The translations under genes and the position numbers were made by a program. From Limosilactobacillus reuteri subsp. reuteri (GTDB lineage: Bacteria; Bacillota; Bacilli; Lactobacillales; Lactobacillaceae): a stretch of DNA of 64,000 nt. Positions 4,015-44,480 of this stretch are shown here, piece after piece. A model generated the notes under the pieces. It was given only the letters and a program-made list of their open reading frames with translations, was not told where the DNA came from and did no database searches. Within the stretch, counting starts at the first letter, position 1. Each line of letters opens with the position of its first letter. The DNA lies in the NCBI RefSeq assembly GCF_000016825.1, contig NC_009513.1, positions 182,501 to 246,500 of the forward strand, written 5' to 3'.

Positions 4015-5076
4015 TGTCAATTTAAATTAGAAAAAAGTTGAAAGCTGTTCTTCTGTGACATAACTCATGAATACTTCTAGTGGTGTACGATAATTAAGAG
4101 ACTTTCGTGGGATATTGTTGCGACGGTGCATTAGCTGAGTGACTAGTTCGTTTGGTAAATGGCGAAAATCTAGCTTTTTGCTAAGACCGTCACGACGCAA
4201 GATGCCGTTATTATTTTCGTTTAACCCTCGTTGATTGGGAGCACCGACTTCCGCAAAATAGGTATGAAGATCATACTTATTGGCTATCTCTCGCCATCCA
4301 GCAAATTCTTTCCCATTATCAAAAGTAATTGATTTAACAAAGTGACGTGGCAGTTTAGCGAGCCATTGGTCAAGCTGGCAATTCACTGCTTCGTCTGTTT
4401 TATGATGAATATTAAGGACAATCATTACTTTGGATTGTCGCTCTACTAGCGTCATTACCGCTCCGCGGTGAGCTTTACCTTGAACTGTATCAGCTTCAAA
4501 GTGTCCAAATTCATGTTGGTAATGCGGAAAATCACGATATCGTTGATAGATACTGCGTCCTAATTGGCCAGCTTTACCACGATGTTCCACATAGCCATTG
4601 GGATGGCGTTTTCCTTTCATCGGTAGCTGTTTAACGGAAAAGCCATACTGATTGCGGGCAAACATGCGATAGAGGGTGCGCATACTGCAACTAATCGGGT
4701 GTTCATGACGACCAATAATAGTATCAGGAGTCCAACCAGCCTTGATTTGTGCATGGATATAGTTAACCTCGATAGTTGGCAGTTGGGTCTGCTTCCGACC
4801 ACAACGACGTTTATGACGCTGATAAGTCTGAAGATATTGGTCGATGGTTTTACCGTTATTGAGGAAACGATAAACACGATAGATGGTTTCTTGACTACGT
4901 TGAAGTAATTTAGCGGCCCGATAAGCTTTAGTGCCTTGATACCAAAAATCAGCTATGAGAGTTAATTCGCGTGTGGTAAGATGTTTATAGGTCATTTGTG
5001 ATTGCCTTTCTTTTGATTAGGGATACTCAAAAGTCTATCACAAATGGCTTTTTATTTTTTCTAACTTAATTTTACA
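4015..5076 (-). mobile_element. IS30-family insertion sequence
   Basis: The element is 1062 bp with imperfect 21-bp terminal inverted repeats at 4015-4035 and 5056-5076 (18 of 21 positions match). A likely 2-bp target duplication AA lies at 4013-4014 and 5077-5078; IS30 elements make 2-3 bp duplications. It carries one complete transposase gene. The insertion falls between codons 4 and 5 of a small minus-strand gene. Confidence 0.88.
4027..4995 (-). CDS. IS30 family transposase
   Basis: A 322-residue DDE transposase. The N-terminal HTH begins MTYKHLTTRELTLIADFW. The catalytic core contains FEADTVQGK (first Asp), SITFDNGKEF (second Asp) and the downstream Glu in LNENNNGILRR. These are the characteristic IS30 motifs, and the length is typical. 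The gene is intact and fills the element, so it could be mobile. Confidence 0.95.
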   Translation of the reverse strand: MTYKHLTTRELTLIADFWYQGTKAYRAAKLLQRSQETIYRVYRFLNNGKTIDQYLQTYQRHKRRCGRKQTQLPTIEVNYIHAQIKAGWTPDTIIGRHEHPISCSMRTLYRMFARNQYGFSVKQLPMKGKRHPNGYVEHRGKAGQLGRSIYQRYRDFPHYQHEFGHFEADTVQGKAHRGAVMTLVERQSKVMIVLNIHHKTDEAVNCQLDQWLAKLPRHFVKSITFDNGKEFAGWREIANKYDLHTYFAEVGAPNQRGLNENNNGILRRDGLSKKLDFRHLPNELVTQLMHRRNNIPRKSLNYRTPLEVFMSYVTEEQLSTFF

Positions 5077-15859: not shown

Positions 15860-16093
15860 TTAGTCAACTAATTTTCCGATAATTGGAAGTTTTGAAACCG
15901 GTGAATACTTTTTAGCTGCTTGTTGATAGGTGACATCTGATAAATCATGGCCGAAAACATTACCGTGGATTTCTGCGCCTTTCCACTCTGGAACCTCAGA
16001 AACATCATAAACATTTCCACGCACTCCAATATATGCCGGACGACCTTCTTGACCATTATATTGCGCTAATTCATTGTGAGTAAATGACCGCAT
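15860..16093 (-). CDS. Small cytochrome b5-like domain protein
   Basis: A 77-residue single-domain protein. FTHNELAQYNGQEGRPAYIG and VRGNVYDVSEVPEW match the N-terminal half of the cytochrome b5 heme/steroid-binding fold, and GHDLSDV matches the next segment. One candidate axial His is in EIHGNVFGHD; the classic HPGG motif is replaced. Lactobacilli lack heme synthesis, so it may bind another ligand or scavenged heme. The start follows AGGAGGG. It is monocistronic. Confidence 0.85.
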   Translation of the reverse strand: MRSFTHNELAQYNGQEGRPAYIGVRGNVYDVSEVPEWKGAEIHGNVFGHDLSDVTYQQAAKKYSPVSKLPIIGKLVD

Positions 16094-16235: not shown

Positions 16236-17654
16236 TTATTCAGTTGCTAAGTTTGCAGCAGGGCTTTTGACTGGGACTTTCACGAGCATTCCTGCAATGA
16301 TAGTTAGGATTGTAACGAGGAATGGGAAAAATACCCAAGGAATGAAACTTAATGGATTGATTTGTAAGGTACTAGCGATGAATACCCCAGAAACACTCCA
16401 TGGGACAATTGCGTTGACTGCGGCCCCTGCGTCATTGAGAATCCGAGTTAAATCAACCCGTTTTAAGCCTAATTTATCAAATGACGGGAGAAATGATTGC
16501 CCAGGAAGAATAATTGCGAGGTAGTGTTCCCCAACAAGGAGGTTAACCCCAATACAGGTAAGAGCTGTGGAGAATGCTAATCGACCAGGCGTCTTTACAA
16601 TCCCAGTTAAGTGATTAATGATGGCGCTAATAATATTGAACTTGATCAATAAGCCACCTAAAGCAAGGGCAAAGATAATTAGGGCTAGAGAAGTAAGCAT
16701 ACTAGAGATACCGCCTTTAGAAAGCAATGTATCGATTGTTTTATCACCGGTATGGGAAACGTAACCAGTCATGATGGTATTAGTAATCGTAGTGAGGCTG
16801 GTTTTAGGTGCATGAATCCAGCCAAGTACGACCGCAAAGAGTGAGCCAAGGCCAAGGGAAGGAATAGCAGGAACTTGGAAAATGGCTAATACGATTAGGA
16901 GCAGAACTGGGAGAAGAGCCCATCCGGAGATCCAGAACCCATTTTGTAGCCCGGCCATCATTTGGTGAACGGCACCTAAGCTAACATTTTTGGAGTTTAA
17001 CCCTAAGAAGGTGTAAAGAATAAGACAGATTGCCCAGGCAGGAATATCGGTGGTGAGTAAGGATTTAATATGCTTGTAGATACTAATTTCACCAACACTG
17101 GCGGCAAGGTTGGTGGTTCCTGAAAGCGGGGAAATATTTGAACCACAAAAGGCGCCTGAAACAATTACCCCCGCAGTTAAACCGGGGTTGATTTTAAGGG
17201 TTGCACCAATGCCAATAAAGGCGATCCCCATTGTTGATACAGTTGTAAATGAGCTTCCGCAAGCGACTCCAACAAGGGTACAAACAATAAAAACTGTTGG
17301 GAGGAAGAACTTTACAGAAATGATTTCAAACCCAAAGTACATAATTGTTGGAATAGTTCCCGAGAAAATCCAGGTAGCAATTAAGACACCGATAGAAAGA
17401 AAGATAATGAGGGGGTCAACACCGGCTCGCAAACCATGACGCATTCCATTCATTATGGTATCCCATTTAAATCCACGAATTCGTCCGTAAACGGCGAGCA
17501 AAACAAGGGAAATAAATAATGGGGCTTGCGGTTCTTGGTGCTTAAAAATAATAGGGTAGCCTAAGATGCATAAAATAACGCCAAGAATAAGTAAACTTTC
17601 ACTAAAACCAATCACTGGCTCAGGACTATTTTTTGATTTGTTAATAATTTTCAT
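16236..17654 (-). CDS. nhaC: NhaC-family Na+/H+ antiporter or amino-acid-linked exchanger
   Basis: A 472-residue membrane protein with 11-12 hydrophobic segments and NhaC features (GVACGSSFTTVSTMGIAFIGIG, CGSNISPLSGTTNLAA). Family members exchange Na+/H+ or, in MleN, malate and lactate. NhaC-type genes also occur beside tyrosine decarboxylases and behind tyrosine T-boxes in Firmicutes, leading to the idea that some carry tyrosine. Here the gene is preceded by a tyrosine-rich leader peptide and a terminator (17681-17978), which points to control by tyrosine supply. AAGGAG lies before the ATG. Confidence 0.9.
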   Translation of the reverse strand: MKIINKSKNSPEPVIGFSESLLILGVILCILGYPIIFKHQEPQAPLFISLVLLAVYGRIRGFKWDTIMNGMRHGLRAGVDPLIIFLSIGVLIATWIFSGTIPTIMYFGFEIISVKFFLPTVFIVCTLVGVACGSSFTTVSTMGIAFIGIGATLKINPGLTAGVIVSGAFCGSNISPLSGTTNLAASVGEISIYKHIKSLLTTDIPAWAICLILYTFLGLNSKNVSLGAVHQMMAGLQNGFWISGWALLPVLLLIVLAIFQVPAIPSLGLGSLFAVVLGWIHAPKTSLTTITNTIMTGYVSHTGDKTIDTLLSKGGISSMLTSLALIIFALALGGLLIKFNIISAIINHLTGIVKTPGRLAFSTALTCIGVNLLVGEHYLAIILPGQSFLPSFDKLGLKRVDLTRILNDAGAAVNAIVPWSVSGVFIASTLQINPLSFIPWVFFPFLVTILTIIAGMLVKVPVKSPAANLATE

Positions 17655-17680: not shown

Positions 17681-17727
17681 AAAAATACCAACTAGATCAG
17701 CGGCATTTGCTTAATCTAGTTGGTATT
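17681..17727 (-). terminator. Attenuator terminator upstream of nhaC
   Basis: The minus-strand stem AATACCAACTAGAT (17727-17714) pairs perfectly over 14 bp with 17697-17684 and is followed by a U run. It stands 30 bases before the nhaC start codon. Its 5' arm, including ACTAGATTAA (17720-17711), can pair instead with TTAATCTAGT (17775-17766) upstream over 10 bp, a ready-made antiterminator. Confidence 0.88.
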
Positions 17728-17776
17728 ACGGTAGTATAAAAAATCGCGGAAAACTACACGCCCTTACTAGATTAAT

Positions 17777-17843
17777 GTACCTAGCAAAGGACTCATTACA
17801 ACAACAACCCTGCTTAGGTACGAACACCGCTGTCCGTACCTAA
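17777..17843 (-). promoter_or_regulatory. Competing RNA pairings of the nhaC attenuator
   Basis: On the minus strand, TTAGGTACG (17843-17835) pairs with CGTACCTAA (17822-17814) as a 9-bp hairpin. The second arm can pair instead with TAGGTAC at 17783-17777, next to the antiterminator strand 17775-17766. TAATGAGT-type segments also match ACTCATT in and just after the leader ORF. The hairpin begins 15 bases after the leader stop codon, within reach of a terminating ribosome. Confidence 0.65.
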
Positions 17844-17857
17844 ATGAGTACAGACAA

Positions 17858-17917
17858 TTATGCACGGTAAGCATAGTTGTTATAATACTTGGTTGAAGTT
17901 AATGAGTGTTGAATCAT
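17858..17917 (-). CDS. Tyrosine-rich leader peptide of nhaC (19 residues)
   Basis: The ORF encodes MIQHSLTSTKYYNNYAYRA. Four of the seven residues at positions 11-17 are Tyr (codons TAT TAT, TAT, TAC). AAAGGA lies nine bases before the ATG. A consensus promoter lies upstream and a terminator with alternative pairing lies downstream. This is the layout of a ribosome-mediated attenuator in which slow translation at tyrosine codons sets the RNA fold. Too short for standard gene finders; called from context. Confidence 0.7.
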   Translation of the reverse strand: MIQHSLTSTKYYNNYAYRA

Positions 17918-17949
17918 GTTAGTCGTTCCTTTCAAGTTAAGTTGTAATT

Positions 17950-17978
17950 ATTAAAACATTCTAATCTAAATTTGTCAA
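17950..17978 (-). promoter_or_regulatory. Promoter of the nhaC leader transcript
   Basis: On the minus strand, TTGACA (17978-17973), 17 bases, then TTTAAT (17955-17950). The -35 is perfect and the spacing ideal. Transcription would start near 17943, about 25 bases before the leader-peptide ATG. Confidence 0.8.
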
Positions 17979-17987
17979 ATTTTAATT

Positions 17988-19019
17988 TTAAAATTCACCA
18001 GAAATATCCTTATCAGAAAATGAATGAGGATCAGGAACAAAAGAAATATCAGTGTCAATTATTCCAAATTTTTCTCGCATTACATTTTCGATGTGTTCTG
18101 ATAATTGGAAACTTTTGAGAATCGTCATTTTAGCGTTAACCATCACGGAAGCATCAAGCGTGACCACGTTTCCGTTATAGTGAGCTTTTAGTTCGACAAC
18201 TTTTACAACGTGCGGAATATTGGTGATTGTTTGACGGTATTCCTGTTCAGCGCGGGGATCAAAGTAGTCGGTTAAGTTAAGACTACTTTCAAAGAAAATT
18301 TTTAGTCCAGAATATAGAATAAAGAAACCGACGACAATACTGGTAGCACCATCAAGCCAACGAAGGTTAAAGAGGAGGGCACCACCAATTGAAATCAAGG
18401 TTCCAATACTTGTGAAGGCATCGCTCAGACTATCTTGGGCAGAAGCAAGCAACGCGGCGTTTTTTAACTTAAGTCCTGTTTGGCGATTCATATACCAAAC
18501 AACTAACATAATAACTGACGTGATTCCGGCTCCAATTAATGCGACTGGTTGTGGAACCACCCGACTTGCAGGATTGAGGAGACTTTTAATGCCATCGATG
18601 ATAACGCTTAAAGCAATCGCAACCATAACGACCGCTGTGACAAGGAAAAAATTGTCTCATAACGCCAACGAACAAATTGTACTCGTTGGTCAGACCCCAT
18701 ATGTGATATGTGCTTGATAATTTCCAGAAGGCAGCCGTGCGCCAATGATATCATCATCATCGACATCCTGGGCGATGTGTAAGCCCATCATCAGTAAAAA
18801 GGTCGAGATAATTCCCGAAAGGTTGTTGAAAGCATCGGCCCGTAATGTCTGCGATTTACTTATTTCAGCCAACCAGTACTCAATTATTGAAATAACAACA
18901 TAAGCAACCAAGTTATAGATTAAATGGTGTTGGGAAGTTCGAATCTTTGCTAGTTCGTTTGCTTGCGTTTTTTCCCAGTTATTCATTTCTTCGGTTGTAT
19001 GTCTTTTAAATTTAGTCAT
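17988..19019 (-). pseudogene. Cation diffusion facilitator family transporter, disrupted
   Basis: Two frame-matched parts make one CDF protein. The N-terminal part (19019-18690) ends YQAHITYGV-stop. The C-terminal part (from 18626) starts MVAIALSVIIDGIKSL and continues through the membrane domain to the cytoplasmic CTD. Both lie in the same reading frame but are separated by two TGA codons around 18660-18690. In another frame the interval reads RWRYETI, which resembles the expected helix start, so a small indel/rearrangement likely broke it. Intact members export Zn, Mn, Co or Fe. The C-terminal part alone (212 residues) would lack the first membrane helices. Confidence 0.7.
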
Positions 19020-44210: not shown

Positions 44211-44480
44211 TAAAAAAGCACTCGTCCCTTTATTCAAAGGACGAGTGCTCGCGTTACCACCTTTATTTGCTGAATCTTCACAGACCCAGCCTCAGTAGGT
44301 TACTCTAATAAAATAATTAGAATTACCTAGCACTAATAACGTGTGCTAACCCGTTATCGACTAACAATCATCGATACCATTCCAAGCCCATCTTCAGTAG
44401 TTACGCTTGCTTCTTTACACCACCCAGAAGCTCTCTTGTAAGCCTCGCTACTTACTCTGCTTTTCGATATGTTTTAACGT
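44211..44480 (-). ncRNA. T-box riboswitch, methionine specific
   Basis: On the minus strand the T-box core AGGTGGTAACGCG (44262-44250) precedes a terminator (AGCACTCGTCC 44217-44227 with GGACGAGTGCT 44239-44249, then Ts). Further upstream a Stem I specifier region contains GAAG-ATG-GGC, with ATG at 44391-44389, so it reads tRNA-Met. Uncharged tRNA-Met would favour read-through into metQNI and the peptidase gene. Confidence 0.92.

Follow-up and report, generated by a model that had tools for sequence, protein, structure and literature searches.

Introduction

The trp, his, phe and leu operons of enteric bacteria are controlled by leader-peptide attenuators, in which a short ORF with a Shine–Dalgarno (SD) sequence contains codons for the regulated amino acid, and a stalled ribosome selects the antiterminator or the terminator. 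In rtpA, a uORF with regulatory codons lies between a T-box and the gene, and its leader peptide has three Trp. In the portions of the literature available, amino-acid control in Firmicutes is treated as the domain of the T-box, and leader-peptide attenuators appear there as few and scattered. The ilv-leu operon of S. aureus has a branched-chain leader peptide, and the available text also cites leader predictions for Lactococcus lactis and Streptococcus spp. (PMC5794164). His leader peptides are described for Bacillus hisS/hisZ and for Firmicutes his operons (PMC2965389, PMC9413887, in part). For the aromatic amino acids, the accessible sections list Phe/Tyr uORF candidates before shikimate genes (PMC6429828), the aroF uORFC-13-1 (PMC8632094) and, in a survey, NhaC-family transporters under Tyr T-boxes (PMC2494555). 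The suis trpX is placed under a Trp T-box, and none was found in S. pyogenes, as far as the source text available goes.

Here, we analysed a leader upstream of an nhaC-type gene in a window of 64,000 nt from Limosilactobacillus reuteri subsp. reuteri (NC_009513.1, 182,501–246,500; GCF_000016825.1). Like the enteric attenuators, this leader has a short ORF with an SD and codons of the presumed regulatory amino acid, at which a stalled ribosome would choose between antiterminator and terminator. Unlike them, it would relay the signal via alternative helices (P1/P2, P3/P4 and P5/P6); the stall would also block two helices formed by the ORF itself, and the target is a transporter. The leader shares with S. 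aureus ilv-leu, as described in the available text, leader-peptide attenuation with a terminator in Firmicutes, but the codons there are Leu/Ile, not Tyr; the cited Lactococcus and Streptococcus predictions fall, like the present family, within Lactobacillales. As with the His leaders, members of one Firmicutes gene family have a leader peptide in some cases and a T-box in others, but those leaders carry His codons, and the parts of the reports available mention no common RNA architecture with swappable codons. The rtpA arrangement resembles that of the T-box-bearing nhaC relatives, whereas the window's leader has no T-box and is predicted to act on transcription. The shikimate uORFs, to judge from the accessible sections, likewise combine a short Phe/Tyr ORF and RNA structure before aromatic genes, although uORFC-13-1 comes from Acholeplasma and environmental sequences. 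The Tyr T-boxes of the survey concern the same gene family and amino acid, but are tRNA-binding riboswitches with no translated ORF, as presented in the available part of PMC2494555.

Results

Organization of the leader region

The leader is located on the minus strand between a cation-efflux (CDF) ORF and nhaC (Table 1), and an ORF with a Cyt-b5 domain (15860–16093) comes after nhaC. A first-pass annotation had proposed, on this strand, a promoter, an SD, a 19-codon ORF, alternative hairpins, an antiterminator and a terminator before nhaC, and all of these were found at the places given; the four Tyr codons counted within seven are codons 11, 12, 15 and 17. The terminator, announced as 14 bp, is present, and 13 pairs were scored here. 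Two helices that join the ORF (codons 5–7 and 13–16) to RNA behind the second hairpin, and the C:D helix, through which the first switch connects with the antiterminator, had been overlooked. Both promoter hexamers are present, slightly changed, in the aligned leaders, except for the ‒35 element of L029, which lies outside the aligned stretch. The CDF transporter is split into two ORFs (17988–18626 and 18690–19019, minus strand), and the match of the ORF adjoining the leader covers profile positions 82–275 of 285 only.

Table 1. Features of the nhaC leader region, in window positions (cells paired and pairs changed on both sides refer to the leader alignment)
Feature	Position	Strand	Evidence
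Promoter, TTGACA (17973-17978)-N17-TTTAAT (17950-17955)	17950..17978	-	Sequence
SD of leader ORF, GAAAGGAACG	17924..17933	-	Sequence; kept in leader alignment
Leader ORF, 19 codons + TAA, MIQHSLTSTKYYNNYAYRA	17858..17917	-	Frame open in 33 distinct leaders, 17-20 codons
Putative sensor codons Tyr11-Tyr12 (TATTAT)	17882..17887	-	Unpaired in consensus folds, outside every helix
Helix P00, 5' arm (codons 5-7)	17899..17904, partner 17794-17799	-	95.8% cells paired; both-side changes in 5/6 pairs
Helix P0, 5' arm (codons 13-16)	17870..17879, partner 17802-17814	-	96-97% cells paired; both-side changes in 4/9 pairs
Segment A, directly after stop codon; pairs with B (P1)	17848..17856	-	5' arm TGTCTGTAC of 9-bp hairpin; P1 96.5% cells paired, both-side changes in 3/9 pairs, retained in wide family
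Segment B; partner A (P1) or C (P2)	17831..17841	-	3' arm GTACGGACA of 9-bp hairpin (17831-17839), alternative partner at 17816-17825; P2 98.1% cells paired, both-side changes in 4/10 pairs
Segment C; partner B (P2) or D (P3)	17811..17825	-	P3 96.5% cells paired; both-side changes in 1/10 pairs
Hairpin P4, contains D (17777-17786) and D' (17766-17775)	17761..17790	-	96.1% cells paired; both-side changes in 5/12 pairs
D', 5' arm of antiterminator P5, 10-nt match TTAATCTAGT	17766..17775	-	91.1% cells paired with E; both-side changes in 4/10 pairs
E, 3' arm of antiterminator, common to terminator, ACTAGATTAA	17711..17720	-	Leader alignment
Intrinsic terminator P6, six-T run at end; arms 17714-17726 / 17685-17697 (13 pairs)	17685..17726	-	91.6% cells paired; both-side changes in 8/13 pairs
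nhaC-type transporter, 472 aa, probable tyrosine transporter	16236..17654	-	Family profiles and tree position

In agreement with the first-pass annotation, no T-box core was detected: the window's leader matched neither the T-box (RF00230) nor any other Rfam 15 family at the gathering threshold, nor at E 0.1 (L211), and no T-box was matched upstream of the uORF as in an rtpA-type tandem. Among 16 further leader loci searched against Rfam, only the leader region of L218 was touched, by Teg23 (29.5 bits; gathering 166), and the T-box matches in L222 and L226 lie elsewhere in the locus, off the leader. The window does contain a T-box (44234–44476, minus strand; 103.9 bits), one loop of which reads GAAGATG. 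It was rejected as part of the nhaC leader system, being 26 kb away.

Conservation of the leader peptide in the nhaC clade

The leader is present in 34 of 35 distinct orthologous loci of the clade, corresponding to 33 distinct sequences, as L018 is identical to L016. The first-pass annotation had named loss of the ORF or of its Tyr codons, with the terminator kept, as the pattern that would speak against attenuation. Instead, the ORF with SD is open in all 33 distinct leaders, and 32 retain a Tyr-Tyr pair, with Phe-Tyr in L054. The first codon of the pair is TAT in 29, TAC in three and TTC in one, and the second is TAT in 33/33, so that the pair codons specify Tyr in 65 of 66 cases. Since synonymous exchange at the pair is scarce, conservation of codons and of nucleotides is inseparable within the clade; in the wider family described below, other codons occupy the same spot, and there the two are separable.

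The number of Tyr codons per leader is two (three leaders), three (four), four (20) or five (six). That all four Tyr codons matter is therefore unsupported, as 7/33 leaders have fewer. Because Tyr15 and Tyr17 are absent in some species while the Tyr11/12 pair stays, this pair looks like the main sensor. The C-terminal half of the peptide varies within the clade (NNYAYRA, NNAADRN, YNYARQL, NNDAYSA). Two species (L011 and L013) have additional DNA between the leader terminator and nhaC.

The leader loss at L003 (genome G018, NhaC 98% identical) was considered as a natural deletion and rejected. Over the 19 kb compared with the window, G018 has gene pieces in shuffled order, changing orientation and no intergenic DNA, so it was taken as an artefact of assembly or processing and not counted as evidence. 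The same genome covers loci L003, L071 and L174, and looks artificial.

Alternative RNA structures and their covariation

The leader folds with ‒99.5 kcal/mol, compared with ‒59.2 (sd 4.7) for 200 dinucleotide shuffles (z ‒8.5). The segments after the ORF were named A to E. Alignment A1 contained 32 of the 33 leaders (L028, a near copy of L026, was left out) and alignment A2 29 of these 32, with three more rows left out; RNAalifold on A1 gave 50 pairs. The OFF set consists of P00 and P0, which join ORF codons to RNA beyond C, together with P2 (B:C), P4 (the D hairpin) and P6 (the terminator). The ON set, drawn up from complementarity, consists of P1 (A:B), P3 (C:D) and P5 (D':E). Across the 32 leaders, 95.4% of cells were paired in the OFF structure, compared with 89.9 after shuffling and 30–45 after sliding, and 26/50 pairs had changes on both sides against 11.1 in shuffles. 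For the ON structure, 94.7% of cells were paired (91.8 shuffled, 24–37 slid), and 40 cells were changed on both sides against 12.8; only eight pairs were changed on both sides against 5.0 (4/500 shuffles as high), and further pair types numbered 29 against 25.8 (7/500 as high). Covariation was found for both sets but was weaker for the ON set.

P5 and P6, which share E and are mutually exclusive, both covary in the 32 leaders. P00 and P3 are likewise mutually exclusive in a nested fold. Coordinated changes were seen in columns 74, 88, 107 and 151, of which A, B, C and D each contain one; this is what successive alternative partners would require. P0 had a probability of 0.00 in the window's own ensemble despite its covariation. 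In 69 leaders, 52 of them before other genes, P1 and P3 also covary (168 cells against 57 shuffled and 10–43 slid), with further pair types not above shuffles (32 against 30.4; 93/500); neither helix belongs to the structure of the covariance model R1 (P0, P2 and P4 only). The alignment of relatives proposed in the first-pass annotation thus yielded a conserved Tyr pair and covarying alternative helices.

Effect of a stalled ribosome in a footprint model

Leaders truncated after E were folded with the stretch under a ribosome barred from pairing, and this stretch was moved along the ORF, using footprints ‒12..+15, ‒15..+15 and ‒9..+13 in an equilibrium, not cotranscriptional, model. With the ‒12..+15 footprint, the modelled probability of the antiterminator P5 in the window's leader was 0.06 without a ribosome or with a ribosome at the stop. 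It rose to 0.99 with Lys10 in the A site, 1.00 with Tyr11 and 0.97 with Tyr12, fell to 0.85 at Asn13 and 0.42 at Asn14, and was 0.06 from Tyr15 to the stop. A stall at Tyr15 gave 0.06 with both ‒12..+15 and ‒9..+13, and a partial 0.69 with ‒15..+15. A role of Tyr15 and Tyr17 as switch codons was not supported, there being no switching at them in the window model with two of the three footprints.

Averaged over 32 species, P5 was 0.62 at the codon before the pair and 0.63 and 0.58 at the pair, and had already reached 0.41–0.45 at codons further upstream. It was 0.12–0.17 from four codons past the first Tyr, 0.12 at the stop and 0.12 without a ribosome. A gain of more than 0.2 relative to the stop was predicted for 22/32 species with ‒12..+15, 21/32 with ‒15..+15 and 17/32 with ‒9..+13. 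It was not reached in 10/32 (L011, L013, L016, L019, L020, L022, L026, L029, L037 and L052); in six of these P5 never exceeded 0.05, and in L016 and L029 it forms at the stop too. With the transcript cut at P4, a stall changed hardly anything, P4 being at 0.99 in every state of the window's leader. In the model, therefore, switching requires E to have been transcribed by the time D is locked, and timing matters.

NhaC phylogeny and links to tyrosine

The NhaC protein matches PF03553 with 160.7 bits and TIGR00931 with 366.5 bits, just below the cut-off of 370. In a tree of 90 NhaC proteins, those with the attenuator form one clade (one label change, support 100/98). The sister clade, joined at 100/100, consists of five NhaC with T-boxes (L055–L059), four of them from the same genus. 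These T-boxes score 54.7–78.9 bits, below the gathering score of 93, and their loops read GAATTAC, like those of the six tyrS T-boxes examined; the other nhaC T-boxes among the 13 examined read GAA-N-TAC with variable N, with GAATTAT in L070. Because the loops match those of tyrS T-boxes, we read the nhaC T-boxes as tyrosine T-boxes, by motif rather than structure.

The next branch out contains four NhaC beside a tyrosine decarboxylase, TyrP and tyrS. Two further lineages with a decarboxylase neighbour, G392 and G261, diverged before it; the G261 stretch contains two NhaC copies but lacks tyrS. Among these six loci, decarboxylase family scans covered four (L162, L166, L167 and L168; TIGR03811), TyrP was scanned at one locus and tyrS at three, and the remainder were assigned by reading-frame resemblance. 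The L. reuteri genome gave no tyrosine decarboxylase match, in a search run without a positive control; it does encode an NhaC paralogue preceded by a T-box (L070; C1, 1882748–1884073). The prediction that this NhaC handles tyrosine or a linked flux is thus independently supported by the Tyr T-boxes of the sister clade and the tyrosine decarboxylase beside NhaC of the next clade out.

Related leaders in Lactobacillales

Based on covariance model R1, built from Limosilactobacillus leaders, matches were found in 61/301 Lactobacillaceae genomes and 16/38 genera, the own genus included. Model R2, built from 69 leaders, matched 176/395 Lactobacillales genomes and 47/81 genera. In a draw from class Bacilli that served as false-positive control, 19/249 genomes matched, 18 of them in Lactobacillales; outside this order the only match was in G768 (two places, 37.6 and 36 bits), that is, in 1 of at most 226 Bacilli genomes. 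The searches used strict filters, with which weak matches may be missed.

We inspected 110 non-nhaC loci, comprising all 52 from the R1 search and 58 among the R2 matches listed; loci fetched twice were counted once, and the truncated L287 was left out. A composition-blind rule found a leader ORF in 110/110, with an SD pattern in 103 (absent at L282, L290–L294 and L310). Leaders were called aromatic when F/Y/W made up three or more of the last nine residues and outnumbered I/L/V, and branched in the reverse case. By this rule 102/110 leaders are F/Y/W-rich, seven I/L/V-rich and one neither (L216, KYYRLADMN), in a set of loci that are not mutually independent and in which aromatic leaders are favoured by ascertainment, since the models include the leader codons. 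At 4520 random positions the rule yielded 1933 ORFs, 169 aromatic and 709 branched; because so many chance ORFs pass the branched rule, composition alone is no evidence for these leaders, and only their fit with branched-chain genes is.

The genes behind the leaders encode MFS transporters (49, of which 48 have aromatic leaders), TrpX-like binding proteins (24), AroE (15), chorismate mutase (five), amino-acid ABC proteins (five), APC permease (two) and a D-lactate dehydrogenase-like protein (one), with two left unassigned; branched-chain leaders precede IlvA (two), IlvB (two), LivJ-like proteins (two) and IlvE (one). Identities were assigned by similarity to representatives, the TrpX, LivJ and chorismate mutase matches being below NCBIfam cut-offs. 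The codons fit wherever the pathway can be named, in 20/20 loci of AroE and chorismate mutase and 7/7 of IlvA/B/E and LivJ. In the footprint model of the wider family, a gain above 0.2 was predicted for only 19/52 leaders, with E located automatically; mean P5 was 0.47–0.50 at aromatic codons, 0.33 without a ribosome and 0.26 near the end.

Several single loci were of additional interest. In L217 (1411..2), the MFS transporter behind an aromatic leader is a fusion protein with a C-terminal chorismate mutase type II domain (PF01817). Long MFS frames of 470–491 aa, some ended by the locus edge, occur in L218, L220, L222, L230, L238, L239, L249, L252 and L259. In L224 and L227, a BcaP-like APC permease (below the NCBIfam cut-off) follows a leader rich in Phe (FFNFAYFM), which points to an aromatic substrate. 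In L316, the leader AVFFNSNFR precedes a D-lactate/2-hydroxyacid dehydrogenase-like gene, perhaps for a phenyllactate enzyme.

Micro-ORFs behind the T-boxes of nhaC genes

An ATG micro-ORF preceded by an SD lies in the interval from the T-box core to nhaC in 37/59 nhaC loci (without L131, a wrong stretch, and L141, where the start was not found), compared with 1/25 other T-box loci (5 of 30 control loci, with no usable core and gene, were left out). GGxxRY or a close variant is encoded in 27/59 of the nhaC loci, with wobble positions free. Micro-ORFs, often with GG(I/L/M/N)xRY, occur in L055–L059, L067–L069, L077, L083, L084, L117, L119, L121, L124, L125, L129, L130, L133, L135, L137–L139, L148, L150, L151 and L156–L160. 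In L127 and L132, a longer ORF with a Tyr-rich end, MKFIEKLRMQATF..., lies between the T-box and nhaC. In three other genera without a T-box match (L076, L078 and L087), the conserved peptide MFLC(K/N)TTGGI(T/A)YYRMT(H/N)F, with SD, is encoded just upstream of nhaC.

In 30 GGxxRY loci, the modelled mean accessibility of the nhaC SD was 0.43 in the ribosome-free state and increased to 0.61 when a ribosome occupied the Tyr codon; several of these loci were unmoved, and seven other loci showed no gain (0.46 to 0.41). A simple translational attenuator is thus not upheld by the accessibility model for the micro-ORFs behind T-boxes, and we keep it as a lead only. By analogy, tandem sensing by T-box and micro-ORF as in rtpA is possible.

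Discussion

With high probability, the nhaC leader senses charged tRNA-Tyr and acts as a ribosome-mediated transcription attenuator. Ribosome-mediated attenuation, already advanced in the first-pass annotation, is supported at the sequence level by the conserved ORF and Tyr pair and by the covarying alternative helices. Comparison among relatives establishes the parts of the leader, their conservation and covariation and, at the same level, the exchange with Tyr T-boxes in the sister clade.

We infer where the ribosome stalls, in what order the helices form, in which direction nhaC is regulated and what NhaC transports, as follows. When Tyr is plentiful, the ribosome would reach the stop codon and cover segment A; B would then pair with C (P2) and hairpin P4 would form, leaving E free for the terminator and nhaC off. 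When Tyr is short, the ribosome would stall with Tyr11 or Tyr12 in the A site, covering approximately codons 6 to 15, so that P00 and P0 could not form fully and A would pair with B (P1). C would then pair with D (P3) and open P4, D' would pair with E (P5), and in the absence of the terminator nhaC would be transcribed. NhaC would most likely be a tyrosine importer.

The same RNA relay could serve a different sensor, namely, an arrest peptide of the TnaC or SpeFL type that senses free tyrosine, with high Tyr stalling the ribosome near the stop, where it would cover A and cause termination. A stall at the stop codon does predict the OFF state, and the C-terminal half of the peptide is conserved in the wider family: of the 102 leaders whose last nine residues include three or more F/Y/W, 88 have F as the next-to-last residue and 60 end in R. 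Part of this conservation is accounted for by P0, which also holds the nucleotides of the C-terminal half. Within the nhaC clade that half varies while the Tyr pair stays, and the modelled switch point is the Tyr pair, which makes an arrest peptide improbable. With an incidental ORF, the leader could be a ligand-binding riboswitch or a T-box variant that escaped detection; this would agree with the strong structure of the RNA (z ‒8.5), with the frequency of T-boxes in the own genome (28 places) and with the near invariance of the Tyr-pair nucleotides in the clade. We consider it very improbable: the window's leader has no Rfam match, the ORF, SD and Tyr pair are conserved with the pair outside the helices, and in the wider family the codons at the sensor spot follow the downstream gene. 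A general translation sensor, induced by antibiotics or stress and not specific for tyrosine, is the least credible of the alternatives, for although any stall near codons 10–13 opens the terminator in the window model (0.99 at codon 10, 0.85 at codon 13), the switch-point codons of the clade are Tyr in 65/66 cases and codon class tracks gene class in the wide family.

The proposed attenuator sensing charged tRNA-Tyr is known in kind; its new part is the relay, the breadth and the swappable specificity. The Tyr assignment of NhaC is already known from the available part of PMC2494555, and the leader type is new. The branched-chain part of the family may be partly known already, judging from the available text of PMC5794164, and two uORFs of PMC6429828 may, from its accessible sections, be identical with members of the present family. 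In the open-licence literature, as far as its texts were available, we found no description of this leader, of a Tyr leader for nhaC or of the family, which counts as weak evidence. The attenuator family of Lactobacillales is apparently undescribed and modular.

Taken together, it is rather likely that the nhaC leader is the Tyr member of a single, undescribed class of translated RNA switches that extends across the order Lactobacillales. In this class, a fixed hairpin relay would be coupled to sensor codons that can be swapped (Tyr; Phe/Tyr; Ile/Leu/Val). Its members would exchange with T-boxes in evolution and control how aromatic and branched-chain amino acids are transported and synthesized, and the Tyr micro-ORF behind retained nhaC T-boxes would be a second, translational sensing step. 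The leader codons would then reveal the substrates of unnamed transporters, including the MFS family, one member of which is fused to chorismate mutase, the ABC binding proteins and NhaC. A T-box and an attenuator before the same gene in sister clades would provide a clean case of sensor replacement.
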